The translations under genes and the position numbers were made by a program. Positions 40,482-44,765 of a stretch of 64,000 nt of DNA are shown here, in pieces; the stretch's first letter is position 1, and every line of letters begins with the position of its first letter. The stretch is from the NCBI GenBank assembly GCA_015660965.1, contig JACTVG010000004.1, forward strand, positions 1 through 64,000, in the 5' to 3' direction. The stretch comes from Methanoregulaceae archaeon. GTDB taxonomy: Archaea > Halobacteriota > Methanomicrobia > Methanomicrobiales > Methanospirillaceae. The notes beneath the pieces are model-generated. The model had not been told where the DNA came from. It did not search any database and worked only from the letters and a program-made list of their open reading frames with translations.

Positions 40482-40589
40482 TTCTCTGTTCTTATGTTAT
40501 ATGGATAATTTCTGCTTTTACTCTATCGATACCATTAATATTCACCTGACAGAAAATACTTAAGCACTTTTGAGAAAGTGCTGACAGAA
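40482..40589 (+). promoter_or_regulatory. rps15 promoter with palindrome
   Basis: A TATA-like AAAATACTTA lies at 40553-40562. An exact 8-bp inverted repeat, AGCACTTT-TGAG-AAAGTGCT (40563-40582), lies between it and the predicted start at about 40583. CTGACAGAA occurs twice, at 40546-40554 and 40581-40589, exactly 35 bases apart. The repeat is not followed by a T run, so it is a poor terminator and a better operator candidate. Confidence 0.45.
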
Positions 40590-40673
40590 GTAAGTCCGAC
40601 GTGCATTAACTGCACTGCCCAACGTGGCTTGGGATTACCAGGAGTCAGCAAACACTGCTCTTTTTGGACTTAC
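40590..40673 (+). ncRNA. Structured RNA leader upstream of rps15, cloverleaf-like
   Basis: Hand folding gives four helices. P1 is GTAAGTCC (40590-40597) with GGACTTAC (40666-40673). P2 is GTGC/GCAC (40601-40604, 40612-40615). P3 is CCCAA/TTGGG (40618-40622, 40629-40633). P4 is GAG-T-CAG with CTGCTC (40642-40648, 40655-40660) and is followed by five T (40661-40665). The four-way plan resembles a tRNA, but there is no TTCGA loop and no recognisable tRNA identity. The S15 Shine-Dalgarno AGGAGG lies 11 nt beyond P1. Candidate roles: S15-responsive leader, attenuator, or separate small RNA. An ACA just after P1 (40672-40674) is compatible with an H/ACA guide but I see no clear K-turn. Confidence 0.45.
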
Positions 40674-40696
40674 ATTCTTCAATAGGAGGTAATATT

Positions 40697-41158
40697 ATGG
40701 CAAGAATGCATACCCGCAGAAGGGGTAAGTCATGCTCAGTTCGCCCCTACCGAAAGGAAGCTCCCTCTTGGTCGAACGTAGATATCAAAGGGATTGAGAA
40801 AGTGATTATCGATCTACGGAAGGAAGGAACATCGAGCAGCAAGATCGGACTGATCCTGCGGGACCGCTACGGCGTCCCTGATATCAAACTCGTGACCGGA
40901 GGAAAACGCATCGGCGATATCTTAAAGGCCTACAAGCTAGAGTCAGACATACCTGAAGACCTACGTGATCTCATGAAAAGGGCGCTCGGTCTTCGTAAGC
41001 ACCTAATTGAGAATGAAAACGACCTACACAATAAAAGGCGGCTCCAGCTTGTTGAATCAAAGATTCGCCGATTGGTAAAGTACTATACTAGAAGTGGCAG
41101 ATTACCCACAGATTGGAGCTATAAACCGGAGACCACAGAAATTCTGCTGTCCAGATAA
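40697..41158 (+). CDS. rps15: Small-subunit ribosomal protein S15 (uS15)
   Basis: This 153-aa archaeal uS15 has an N-terminal extension (MARMHTRRRGKSCSVRPYR) and the core helices with LRDRYGVPDIKLVTG and KRALGLRKHLIENENDLHNKRRLQLVESKIRRL. The ATG at 40697 follows a strong AGGAGGT; an in-frame start 33 nt earlier would overlap that site. It is followed by the DHH gene 16 nt on. Confidence 0.97.
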   Translation: MARMHTRRRGKSCSVRPYRKEAPSWSNVDIKGIEKVIIDLRKEGTSSSKIGLILRDRYGVPDIKLVTGGKRIGDILKAYKLESDIPEDLRDLMKRALGLRKHLIENENDLHNKRRLQLVESKIRRLVKYYTRSGRLPTDWSYKPETTEILLSR

Positions 41159-41174
41159 ATCGTTTCGATCCCCT

Positions 41175-42398
41175 ATGTCACTTGAAGCCGCCGCAAACCT
41201 TGTCGCAGAACAGATTAAAAGGCAGGAATATGTCGAGGTAGTTGCACACCATGACAGTGACGGCATCGCTACAGGTTCAATTCTTTGCTATGCAATGTTC
41301 CGTGCAGGCATCCACTTCCGGTTCAGAATCAGACATGAGATTACCGCGGCAGAAATTAGGAGGGAGAACGCGTATCTACTCTGTGATCTCGGTGCTGGAA
41401 TCGAAGACCTCCCAAAAGATACGATGGTTGTAGACCATCATAACCCGCACTTTTCAGGGGATTATCATGTTAACCCCAGGCTTGCAGGTATTGATGGCGA
41501 CCATGAGCTATCGGCTTCAGGAGTTGCTTACATTGTTGCCCAACATCTAGGCGACAACCGTGATCTCGTTGGACTTGCGTTACTCGGACTCATTGGCGAT
41601 GGTCAACAAGTACTAAGCGGGAAAAACCTTGAAATCCTCAATGAAGGGGTAGGAAATGGCATTATTACATCGAACCGGGGGTTGTTGCTTCCAGGAAGAG
41701 ATATGTTTGAACGATGGCTCATGGCCATAAACCCGTTCCTTGATGGCCTCAGTGGGAATGAGACCGAGGTGAACGCGATTATTGAGCAATCGGGTGGAAA
41801 AAACGCTCTGAAATTTGATCAGTTGCTTTCAATGGCTCTGCTAAAGATTGTGCCCCATGTGAATATCGATTGTATAGATGAGATCTATGGCGATACCTAT
41901 GTCATGGAACGCGAGGTGATCCCAGACGCTCACACATTCTCCTCGATTATCGACGCATGCGGAAAATCAGGACATGGTGACATTGCTGCATCGCTTTGTT
42001 TGCGCAATTCCTATGATATTGATAAAGCGTGGGAAATTACGAAGGCACACCGTTTGAAAGTAATCGATGCAATTCGTGTGGCGGAAACCTCTGCAATACG
42101 TAGGGATGAGGTGTATGAGATTGAAGACGCAACAGTGTTAGGAGATCTCGCTGACGCCTTGATTTGCCGAACCACAAACACAACTCCAATTGCAGTTGTT
42201 GCTAATGATGGGGGGATCTGTCGAATTTCTGCACGTTGTCCCCAGGATATCAATTTAGATCTTGGTTTAGTAATTCGCGAGATAGCCCGCTCTTCTGGAG
42301 GGGTTGGCGGAGGTCACCATAACCGAGCAGGGGCAACCATACCTTGCAAACAGCTCGAGACATTCAAAAAGGATTGGCATAAGGTTGTGGCTGCATGA
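41175..42398 (+). CDS. RecJ-like DHH phosphoesterase
   Basis: This 407-aa DHH-superfamily protein has HHDSDGIATGSI, CDLGAG and the name motif VDHHNPH, the manganese ligands of RecJ-like nucleases. The C-terminal part contains the DHHA1-type GGGHHNRAG substrate motif. Archaeal relatives include GAN, which binds GINS at the replication fork, and stand-alone exonucleases. Beginning at ATG 41175 gives MSLEAAANLV; an upstream start would overlap rps15. It is coupled by a 4-nt overlap to pcc1. Confidence 0.92.
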   Translation: MSLEAAANLVAEQIKRQEYVEVVAHHDSDGIATGSILCYAMFRAGIHFRFRIRHEITAAEIRRENAYLLCDLGAGIEDLPKDTMVVDHHNPHFSGDYHVNPRLAGIDGDHELSASGVAYIVAQHLGDNRDLVGLALLGLIGDGQQVLSGKNLEILNEGVGNGIITSNRGLLLPGRDMFERWLMAINPFLDGLSGNETEVNAIIEQSGGKNALKFDQLLSMALLKIVPHVNIDCIDEIYGDTYVMEREVIPDAHTFSSIIDACGKSGHGDIAASLCLRNSYDIDKAWEITKAHRLKVIDAIRVAETSAIRRDEVYEIEDATVLGDLADALICRTTNTTPIAVVANDGGICRISARCPQDINLDLGLVIREIARSSGGVGGGHHNRAGATIPCKQLETFKKDWHKVVAA

Positions 42399-42619
42399 TA
42401 AAAATCGATGGTGTTATTATTACAACACATAAAAACCCAACGTGCGTTGCACAGGCAATTCGTCCCGACAACCTCTCATCAATGACAACGATTGCAACTG
42501 AAAAAGGGGTAAAAACGTTGATTAATGGTAAACATCTGCGTTCAGTAATCGCATCAGTAGATGATTATCTGACAAATCTTGCAATTGCGGAGGAAATATG
42601 TTCGTTCGTTTCGCACTGA
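42395..42619 (+). CDS. pcc1: KEOPS complex subunit Pcc1
   Basis: This 74-aa protein fits Pcc1, the dimerising subunit of KEOPS that makes t6A in tRNAs reading ANN codons. It shows the small alpha-beta pattern with IRPDNLSS, the mid TIATEKGVKTLING, and the final helix SVIASVDDYLTNLAIAEE. It starts inside the end of the DHH gene (ATGA) and ends inside serS (22-nt overlap). The match is by fold pattern and neighbourhood (rps15-recJ-pcc1-rps3ae is a common archaeal order). Confidence 0.85.
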   Translation: MIKIDGVIITTHKNPTCVAQAIRPDNLSSMTTIATEKGVKTLINGKHLRSVIASVDDYLTNLAIAEEICSFVSH

Positions 42620-44151
42620 CCGCTAAACTAAACTTCAACAACGAACTGTCCAGTGACGCGAAGAATAGTGTCGAAAAGACTGTGACTGAGTCAAACACTG
42701 TGCTGTTTAAAAAGGGCGTTCCTAAAGGTACTCAAGAACGAGAAATAGGCCGAATCACCACATGGAGTGTTGAGGAAAACACAATTTACCTATTTATCGA
42801 GAGCGGAACTTACACAAGAGCACACGACGCCCTGTTCCGGTTCAAAAAACAAATAACCACTGCATTAGGTAAATTTAGGCTTGGACTTAGAGGTATCGAA
42901 ATAAGCGAGTATCAGATCAATTTGAGTGGAGAAATCCCAGATGGAATTCGAATCCCAAACCTTCCGTTCATCAAATCTTATGATTTGAAAAGCAACGAGA
43001 TCTGTCTTGACCTAAAAGTGACTGCAGCGGACTTAGAGAATAAGGTGCCGGATCGTCTCGTCAAACTTATTGAGGAAAAAATTCAAGCGATGAGCTATGG
43101 CGGCAAAGGTGAACATTGGGATCTCGTCTTCGCAAGTAAGCCCAAACCAAAGCAATTTACTCGCGATCCTACAGAAGAAATGGTGAACCGAAATTGGATC
43201 CGACATGGGGCATCTCGTGGCCAGTGGATTCACGGTCCACAATCTGTTCAACTCTTTCGAGCGTTTGAACAGATTGTTATTGAAAAAATCATTCGCCCAT
43301 TAGGTTTCTCCGAGATGATCTTCCCCAAGCTCACACCATGGGAGGTCTGGAAGCGATCAGGGCACGCCAAAGGCGTCTATCCAGAGATCTATTACGTTTG
43401 TACACCAAAGACGCGAGATCCCACTTTTTGGGAGGATGTTGGGGACTTCTTCAAGGTAACTGGAGAAGTGCCAATCGATATGATCCGTGAGAAGATGGAT
43501 GGACCTATTGGCGGGTTGTGTTACGCTCAATGCCCCTCTTTCTGGCCGTTCATACAGGGTGAAACACTTGCGACTGCCTCGTTACCAATTAAGGTTTTTG
43601 ACCGTAGTGGCACTTCACACCGATATGAAAGTGGTGGTATCCACGGGATTGAACGTGTTGACGAGTTCCATAGAATAGAAATTGTGTGGCTAGGGACTGC
43701 TGAGCAAACGGTAGAATTAGCCGATAAACTCCACGAAGCATACCACCAGGTATTTGAAGAAATTCTTGAGCTTGAGTGGAGATGTGCCAGAGTAACCCCT
43801 TGGTTTATGGCTCAGGAAGGTATGATTGATACAGGAAAAGCGCCGCAAAATATTGATACCTGCGCTTGTGATTGCGGTAAACGTGTAGGCACGACAGATT
43901 ATGAAGCTTACCTGCCATATAGTGATAGCTGGCTTGAGTTTCAAAATGTAAGTATAAATGGTGACAAATACCCGAAAGGGTTCAACGTGAAAATACAGAA
44001 CAACGAACCCTGCTGGTCTGGTTGTTCTGGTGTTGGGCTCGAACGGTGGACTGCGGCATTTTTAGCCCAAAAAGGGCTTGATATTGAAGCTTGGCCGGAT
44101 AAAATTGTTAAGTTAGTAGGAGAACCAAATGAGATATTCAAATTCTTATAG
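42598..44151 (+). CDS. serS: Type-2 (methanogen) seryl-tRNA synthetase
   Basis: This 517-aa product is the rare methanogenic SerRS rather than the common form. The N-terminal domain (about residues 1-165) is unlike the coiled coil of ordinary SerRS. The core has MSYGGKGEHWDL, PRTSHRYESGG-like FDRSGTSHRYESGG, CYAQCPSFWPF and a motif 3, GCSGVGLERW; Zn is expected to be held by Cys, Glu and Cys in this family. Late cysteines (CACDCGKRVG) lie in the expected region. A GGAGG is placed 4-5 nt before the ATG, which lies within pcc1 (22-nt overlap). Confidence 0.95.
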   Translation: MFVRFALTAKLNFNNELSSDAKNSVEKTVTESNTVLFKKGVPKGTQEREIGRITTWSVEENTIYLFIESGTYTRAHDALFRFKKQITTALGKFRLGLRGIEISEYQINLSGEIPDGIRIPNLPFIKSYDLKSNEICLDLKVTAADLENKVPDRLVKLIEEKIQAMSYGGKGEHWDLVFASKPKPKQFTRDPTEEMVNRNWIRHGASRGQWIHGPQSVQLFRAFEQIVIEKIIRPLGFSEMIFPKLTPWEVWKRSGHAKGVYPEIYYVCTPKTRDPTFWEDVGDFFKVTGEVPIDMIREKMDGPIGGLCYAQCPSFWPFIQGETLATASLPIKVFDRSGTSHRYESGGIHGIERVDEFHRIEIVWLGTAEQTVELADKLHEAYHQVFEEILELEWRCARVTPWFMAQEGMIDTGKAPQNIDTCACDCGKRVGTTDYEAYLPYSDSWLEFQNVSINGDKYPKGFNVKIQNNEPCWSGCSGVGLERWTAAFLAQKGLDIEAWPDKIVKLVGEPNEIFKFL

Positions 44152-44159
44152 GTGATAGA

Positions 44160-44765
44160 ATGGCAAAAAAACAAGTTGGAAGAAGAGTCGAAGGCTGGAA
44201 AGCCAAGAGTTGGTTTAAGGTGCACGTTCCAGAGAATCTCGGAAAGGTGTACATTGGTGATACCATTGCAAATGACGCTGGAAGCGTTGTTGGCAGGATT
44301 ATGCAGGCAACGCTCGGTGAGATAACAAACGACTATGCAAAGCAGCATATAAAAATGAGATTCAGAATTGCAAATGTGACCGGAGACGCCGCATACACTG
44401 AATTTGTTGGTCATGATGTAACACGTGACTACCTTCGTTCGCTTATCAAGCGTCGAAGTACCCGTATAGATTGTTTGGTCCCCATCGTAACAAAAGATAC
44501 AAAGAAAGTCCGGCTTACAATCAGCTGTTATACATTAGCCAGAGCAAACGTATCACAGATACATGCAATAAGAAACGCGATTACTGCAAATGTTCAAGCT
44601 CAAGCGGCCGCATGGGACCTCAATACGCTTGTTAACGGTATTGTCGCAGGCGAGATTTCACGCGATCTTTTCAAAGTGATCAAAGTACTCTACCCAATCC
44701 GGAGAATTGAGGTTGTCAAATCAAAAGTCGAAATGGTGGCTGCACCAACTCCTGAAAGTCCATAA
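44160..44765 (+). CDS. rps3ae: Small-subunit ribosomal protein S3Ae (eS1)
   Basis: This 201-aa eS1 begins with a basic segment (MAKKQVGRRVEGWKAKSWF) and has the recognisable APENLGK-like VPENLGKVYIGD, KIRFRIA-like MRFRIANVTGD and the FVGHDVTRDYLRSLIKRRSTRID motif. It is restricted to archaea and eukaryotes. It follows serS by 8 nt. Confidence 0.96.
   Translation: MAKKQVGRRVEGWKAKSWFKVHVPENLGKVYIGDTIANDAGSVVGRIMQATLGEITNDYAKQHIKMRFRIANVTGDAAYTEFVGHDVTRDYLRSLIKRRSTRIDCLVPIVTKDTKKVRLTISCYTLARANVSQIHAIRNAITANVQAQAAAWDLNTLVNGIVAGEISRDLFKVIKVLYPIRRIEVVKSKVEMVAAPTPESP

Follow-up and report, generated by a model that had tools for sequence, protein, structure and literature searches.

A conserved second fold downstream of the S15-Methanomicrobia leader motif and a proposed strand-exchange switch upstream of rps15

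Introduction

Little is understood of the way in which Archaea let a contact between leader RNA and protein alter expression, and PMC7247131 presents its archaeal leaders as a rare chance to learn how this is done. The question arises in concrete form on the forward strand of the window (the whole stretch of 64,000 nucleotides analysed here, from a contig of a Methanoregulaceae archaeon), where a cloverleaf-like RNA can be drawn at 40590-40673, upstream of rps15. What is this element, does it have one fold or two, and how might it act on the gene that follows? The answer proposed here is that S15 probably controls its own gene, rps15, through a leader with two competing folds. The conserved second fold provides a definite, testable hypothesis in a group of organisms in which U-tract termination is now biochemically understood. 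If the proposal is true, the Methanomicrobiales leader exposes or hides a U-tract and would be a protein-controlled transcription attenuator in Archaea.

Family and Gene Context

The element at 40590-40673 is part of the 5' leader of the rps15 operon and a member of the S15-Methanomicrobia family (RF03137). In a cmscan search the published motif matches 40563-40638 of the forward strand over model positions 1-74 of 74, at 73.8 bits (E 1.2e-11), which exceeds the gathering score of 42.2 by 31.6 bits, and the conserved three-way junction resembling the 16S S15 site, with GUCCGAC and CUUGGGAUUAC, is present, as judged from the cmscan alignment and from same-genus 16S. The family was described, together with its mimicry of the 16S S15 junction, by Eckert and Weinberg (2020; PMC7247131), who predict S15 binding and feedback control by the leader; a literature search found no experimental study of the S15-Methanomicrobia leader RNA. 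A first-pass annotation of the window had suggested a possible undescribed S15 feedback leader, its author knowing of no archaeal S15 leader already described. It recognized the right kind of element, but the claim of novelty is wrong because RF03137 is already described. The stretch that it marked folds as drawn but omits the 5' hairpin P1 (AGCAC...GUGCU, 40563-40582, forward strand), which the RF03137 alignment from cmscan and minimum free energy (MFE) folding assign to the published leader.

Within the class, 209 of 232 genomes carry RF03137, and in a wider draw from the phylum all RF03137 hits among the matches listed fell in the same order; the rps15 loci of Methanosarcinaceae and Methanoperedens gave no RF03137 match. 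By S15 protein, the nearest named genomes to the window are those of Methanoregula sp. All 180 copies that were fetched lie directly upstream of rps15, a constancy of position that bears on a quite different reading, namely that of an independent small RNA, an H/ACA guide or a tRNA-like element unrelated to S15 control. The first pass had kept the guide and the stand-alone RNA as alternatives, and in favor of such a reading there is the cloverleaf-like outline and nothing more. Set against that outline are the invariable position upstream of rps15, the failure of ARAGORN and of a tRNA covariance search to find a tRNA at this locus, and an Rfam search of the locus that returned no family other than RF03137 at E values up to 1, and the probability of an independent RNA is negligible.

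The gene that follows, rps15 (ribosomal protein S15, uS15; 40697-41158, forward strand, ATG start), is identified by Pfam PF08069 and PF00312 and by its translation, and the downstream genes of the probable operon occupy 41094-44765 of the same strand (Pfam; longest open reading frames). They encode a RecJ-like DHH protein, a small ORF, a methanogen-type seryl-tRNA synthetase (SerRS) and S3Ae; the small ORF, between the RecJ-like DHH gene and the SerRS gene, is without a Pfam match. The operon is thus of the published gene order type, which PMC7247131 gives for the family as rpsO, recJ, rps3ae. Upstream, a TATA-like box, TTAATATT (40535-40542, forward strand), is the predicted promoter, and 162 of 180 relatives have a TATA-like match about as far ahead of their leader; from the sequence, the start site is expected near 40563. 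A Shine-Dalgarno sequence, AGGAGGU, is found at 40684-40690 (forward strand). In one family of the order (f6, with L032, L050, L142, L168, L174 and relatives) some 80-350 nt separate the leader from rps15, and these spacers contain apparent recurring short boxes (GUAUCU) and more inverted repeats. At its start the window lies inside a truncated 16S rRNA gene at a contig end (1-323, minus strand); a whole-genome search of the assembly reported no 16S match.

Two Mutually Exclusive Folds

All of the helices that the first pass had named, four around one junction including a closing stem, are found on folding. For 40590-40673 the MFE is -30.6 kcal/mol, where shuffles average -18.9 (z -3.76; 0 of 200 shuffles as good), and the whole leader folds with a z of -3.33. 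The closing stem (40590-40597:40666-40673) is a perfect 8 bp helix, outside which, past a one-base bulge, lie four extra pairs (AGAA 40586-40589 : UUCU 40675-40678). Within it are two arms common to both folds, one pairing 40601-40605 with 40611-40615 (hairpin P2, GUGCA...UGCAC, 40601-40615, from folding and covariation) and the other pairing 40617-40619 with 40626-40628 (hairpin P3, GCC...GGC, 40617-40628, from folding and the RF03137 alignment). The remaining arm, here called the T arm, is a bulged hairpin (40640-40662; 40640-40648:40655-40662) conserved in relatives, which runs into a U-run, UUUUU (40661-40665), also kept in relatives; the closing strand GGACUUAC (40666-40673) follows on the same, forward, strand.

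This cloverleaf differs from the fold that was published. There, in the S15-binding stem, the shared strand GUAAGUCC (40590-40597, forward strand) has as its partner GGGAUUAC (40631-40638), within which GGAUUAC (40632-40638, forward strand) is the 3' strand of the junction stem in the RF03137 alignment. The published junction stem (fold A) and the cloverleaf (fold B) are mutually exclusive, GUAAGUCC being common to both; the first pass had drawn a real, conserved second fold but missed the other partner that its closing strand has inside the element. A further competition is found just outside the junction stem, where helix P0 pairs GCUGAC (40580-40585, forward strand, overlapping the 3' strand of P1) with GUCAGC (40644-40649, forward strand; alignment and growing-transcript folding). 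GUCAGC serves the T arm, too, as its 5' strand; that arm uses GUCAG (40644-40648) and is mutually exclusive with P0.

The window thus shares with the S15-Methanomicrobia leader its sequence, gene and archaeal order and adds P0, the T arm, the U-run and the closing strand, all outside the RF03137 model, which ends at 40638. The main text of PMC7247131 contains no alternative fold (the words "alternative" and "mutually exclusive" are absent from it), and on downstream U it says only that some leaders are followed by poly-U stretches. Judging by these sources, the competing fold downstream of the RF03137 motif is undescribed. Another pairing of GGACUUAC, with GUAAGUC in the window's rps15 coding sequence (K-S codons), was dropped by eye because that coding stretch is not kept in several relatives. 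On the minus strand, P1 (40563-40582) is followed by a T-rich tail and scores terminator-like; it may end antisense transcription, or the likeness may be due to chance.

Conservation of the Second Fold

Both folds are conserved. In 171 of 180 oriented leaders from 36 genera, the shared strand can pair over at least 7 bp with a downstream partner; when the window's own sequence is shuffled, a partner for GUAAGUCC equalling the native one arises in 2% of cases. After dereplication to 78 leaders, 82% have a closing duplex of -8 kcal/mol or better, compared with 6% of shuffles, and in a 66-sequence alignment the junction stem is 100% paired, and 92.6% of the cells of the closing helix are paired, as against 9.9-41.5% when that helix is slid. 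P0 is paired in 97% of cells even as every one of its pairs varies, with 10 further pair types in the alignment. The T arm hairpin occurs in nearly every relative with variable sequence and length (mean z -2.39, 77 relatives). In one genus (g25; L077, L085, L096, L113 and L130) it often carries an insertion of about 40-50 nt, with the base of the arm and the U-run kept.

Compensating changes in the helices, whose absence among relatives the first pass had counted against its own reading, are present, though few because the strands are nearly invariant. A matching change GUAAAUCC/GGAUUUAC is seen in three genera (g2, g7 and part of g17) and another, GUGAAUCC/GGAUUUGC, in one (g6). In g13, GUAAAUCC is matched by GGAUUAUAC and GCAAA/GUCC by GGAUUUUGC, the junction strand being GGGAUUGC; three strands take part here, in that where the shared strand has changed from U to C, the closing strand has changed from A to G and the junction strand has G. 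The genera g4, g8 and g15 and two of three g20 genomes have lost fold B or have it in weak form. In g15 P0 is replaced wholesale (GACACAC opposite GUGCGUC, with one mismatch). The leaders of this genus (L176, L178, L179 and L180), outliers within the family that lie close to the Rfam cut-off, have both P1 and P0 strands swapped for unrelated, again complementary sequences, and their closing strand is reduced.

In a chimera control, in which arms were swapped between species and which leaves shared ancestry in, the native was matched by 0 of 5000 chimeras for the closing helix, 2 for P0 and 0 for the T arm. Under a home-made phylogenetic null, in which the observed substitutions were placed randomly on the tree and all column pairs were tested, no single pair of the closing helix or of P0 reaches significance, the best having E values of 12-60 (nominal p about 0.002-0.01). 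Single-pair covariation in the new helices is only nominal because their strands hardly vary, the shared strand having 0-2 substitutions in most columns. The strongest covariation is that of the P2 arm (columns 69:87 and 70:86), and only P2 stands out under the phylogenetic null.

It could be argued that only the published motif matters, that GGACUUAC and the hairpin owe their conservation to something else, such as a role as a protein or RNase site, and that the second fold is a by-product of complementarity. The small number of substitutions and the lack of significant pairwise covariation under the phylogenetic null speak for this argument, but it has to contend with coordinated strand changes, including those in three strands of g13, with the chimera test (0 of 5000), and with Halobacteria that have the same design in unrelated sequence (below). 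The argument is in our judgement improbable, and we hold with considerable confidence that the second fold is conserved.

Predicted Folding Order and S15

Folding of the growing transcript in 70 relatives gives the junction stem a mean probability of 0.63 after GUCAG is made and of 0.02 at full length. P0 stands at 0.64 and drops to 0.26 after the T arm is made, and the closing helix has a mean probability of 0.85 at full length. The predicted order is thus fold A before fold B, and these probabilities along the transcript suggest that fold A is therefore short-lived unless held. Given a conserved closing helix and a P0 that competes with the hairpin, the leader therefore appears to be a strand-exchange switch. 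According to the mechanism proposed, fold A would form first as a three-way junction closed by GUAAGUCC:GGGAUUAC with P0 (CUGAC:GUCAG) outside, mimicking the 16S S15 site. Fold B would be the more stable; GUCAG would quit P0 for the hairpin preceding the U-run, and GUAAGUCC would quit the junction for GGACUUAC, so that the cloverleaf closes with the U-run inside it. Any S15 beyond what the rRNA takes up would bind to fold A and keep the RNA there.

S15 is the obvious candidate for the holder of fold A because same-genus 16S resembles the junction and P0. UCCGAC and GGGA are common to the leader and to 16S (helix 22 and the h20-h21-h22 junction), and P0 occupies the position of distal h22, where 16S has CUCACCAGAACGGCUCCGAC and the leader CUGACAGAAGUAAGUCCGAC; in contrast, the strand order of the leader is circularly permuted and most paired bases differ. 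A switch held by S15 is in our judgement quite probable. P0 also has a purine-rich internal loop (40580-40597 and 40630-40649; 16S in L181) at the place of distal h22, and the leader may mimic the S15 site beyond the junction.

Termination or Translation as the Possible Output

How holding fold A would change expression is the last step and the least certain one. The first pass had proposed that the T run lets the RNA switch between termination and read-through; two mutually exclusive folds, conserved across the order, bear out the switching, while S15 binding, the direction of control and the termination output are matters that we infer. Of 169 relatives, 159 have a run of at least four U after the T arm and ahead of the closing strand, at a fixed position (2 nt before the closing strand in 124), although the run is usually only U4, then C. 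Archaeal terminators use U-tracts and need no hairpin; aCPSF1 binds U4 tracts, a single one of which is a weak archaeal terminator (PMC8716108). The U-run is predicted to be unpaired with a probability of 0.82 in fold A, 0.47 with the T arm allowed, and 0.39 in fold B. S15-bound fold A would favor early termination because the U-run is single-stranded there, as aCPSF1/FttA termination appears to need; in fold B, formed without S15, the U-run would be partly paired and enclosed, and read-through would result. We give termination as the output an even chance.

By bacterial logic the hairpin and U-run read as a terminator in fold B, giving the opposite sign. S15 on fold A would then prevent termination (positive control), or S15 might sit on the junction while the T arm forms, with termination occurring while S15 is bound. 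A hairpin does precede the U-run at once in almost all relatives, and the junction and T arm are compatible and lower in energy together before the closing strand is made (-37.5 vs -34.3 kcal/mol). However, archaeal terminators generally do not require a hairpin (PMC8716108), positive control by S15 would be unusual, and P0 and the closing helix would be left without a role. A bacterial-style intrinsic terminator is rather improbable.

The same two folds might instead act on translation, in that CUGCUCUUUUU, freed in fold A, would pair with the Shine-Dalgarno AGGAGGU and block initiation, while in fold B CUGCUCUUUUU would be kept in the T arm and the ribosome site would be free. The sign fits negative feedback. 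Further, the Shine-Dalgarno sequence of the window is predicted to be unpaired with a probability of 0.11 in fold A and 0.75 in fold B, and 43 relatives with short spacers average 0.27 in fold A and 0.60 in fold B; the site is clearly more open in B in 28 of these relatives and in A in 0. The masking is nevertheless not specific, as it is nearly unchanged (0.31) when the freed strand is shuffled; the partner of the freed strand is inconsistent across species, and in 19 relatives with long spacers there is little effect (0.27 vs 0.38). Local masking of the ribosome site is also unlikely as a general output because in 8 genera 66-350 nt separate the closing strand from the AUG. A translational output is the main rival and is possible in the window, but we consider it unlikely. 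The account in its entirety, that of a co-transcriptional strand-exchange switch in which S15 holds fold A and termination is the output, is one that we favor by a modest degree.

Relation to Other Leaders

The E. coli S15 leader similarly has two competing folds, with a pseudoknot that traps the ribosome. Autoregulation by S15 through mimicry of its 16S site would be common to the present leader and to bacterial S15 leaders (E. coli rpsO and others), but in place of the pseudoknot trap of E. coli there is here a closing helix around the U-run. Four validated bacterial S15 leader classes are cited in PMC7247131. Archaeal L7Ae is thought, according to PMC6298567, to control its own mRNA via a k-turn in the 5' leader; as described there, this is likewise autocontrol by a ribosomal protein, but one that uses a k-turn and not strand exchange.

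A further comparison is with the S15 leader of Halobacteria (RF03143, of the same clan), found in 104 of 106 genomes searched, for which ligand and rRNA mimic are common and in which, too, a second partner exists for the 5' strand of the binding stem. Sequence and layout differ, the alternative helix is longer (about -27 kcal/mol), and there is no obvious conserved U-run. The conserved GGGAAC of RF03143 is unpaired in Rfam, and the 5' strand to which it belongs, GGGAAC.GCACGGCCGC, has a partner immediately ahead of the rps15 AUG (such as GCGGUCUGUGCCGUUCC) that competes with the published GCAC..GUGC stem. Over 39 distinct leaders, the alternative helix has a median energy of -27.1 kcal/mol compared with -12.5 for mononucleotide-shuffled sequence; a few rows have the wrong register of the 5' strand and weaker energies as a result. 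A permutation test of this helix was not significant (740 of 5000), and what speaks for the helix at the level of sequence is strong complementarity relative to mononucleotide-shuffled sequence.

The pre-AUG partner suggests that both archaeal S15 leader classes therefore share a strand-exchange plan, in which the 5' strand of the rRNA-mimicking stem appears to have a second, better partner just past the leader. That both classes are switches built on one plan around a transient S15 site, with the Methanomicrobiales version being a protein-controlled transcription attenuator acting via a U-tract, is a tentative proposal to which we give somewhat less than an even chance. As the second fold of Halobacteria lacks an obvious conserved U-run, termination is unlikely as the output there. 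Halobacteria are genetically easy, and the same design could therefore be tested there soon. In individual Halobacteria leaders (L200-L249; for example, L200, L212, L217 and L219), a conserved 5' sequence, GGGAACAGCACGGCCGC, which Rfam leaves in part unpaired, has its complement in a conserved pre-AUG strand, and this pairing excludes the published stem.
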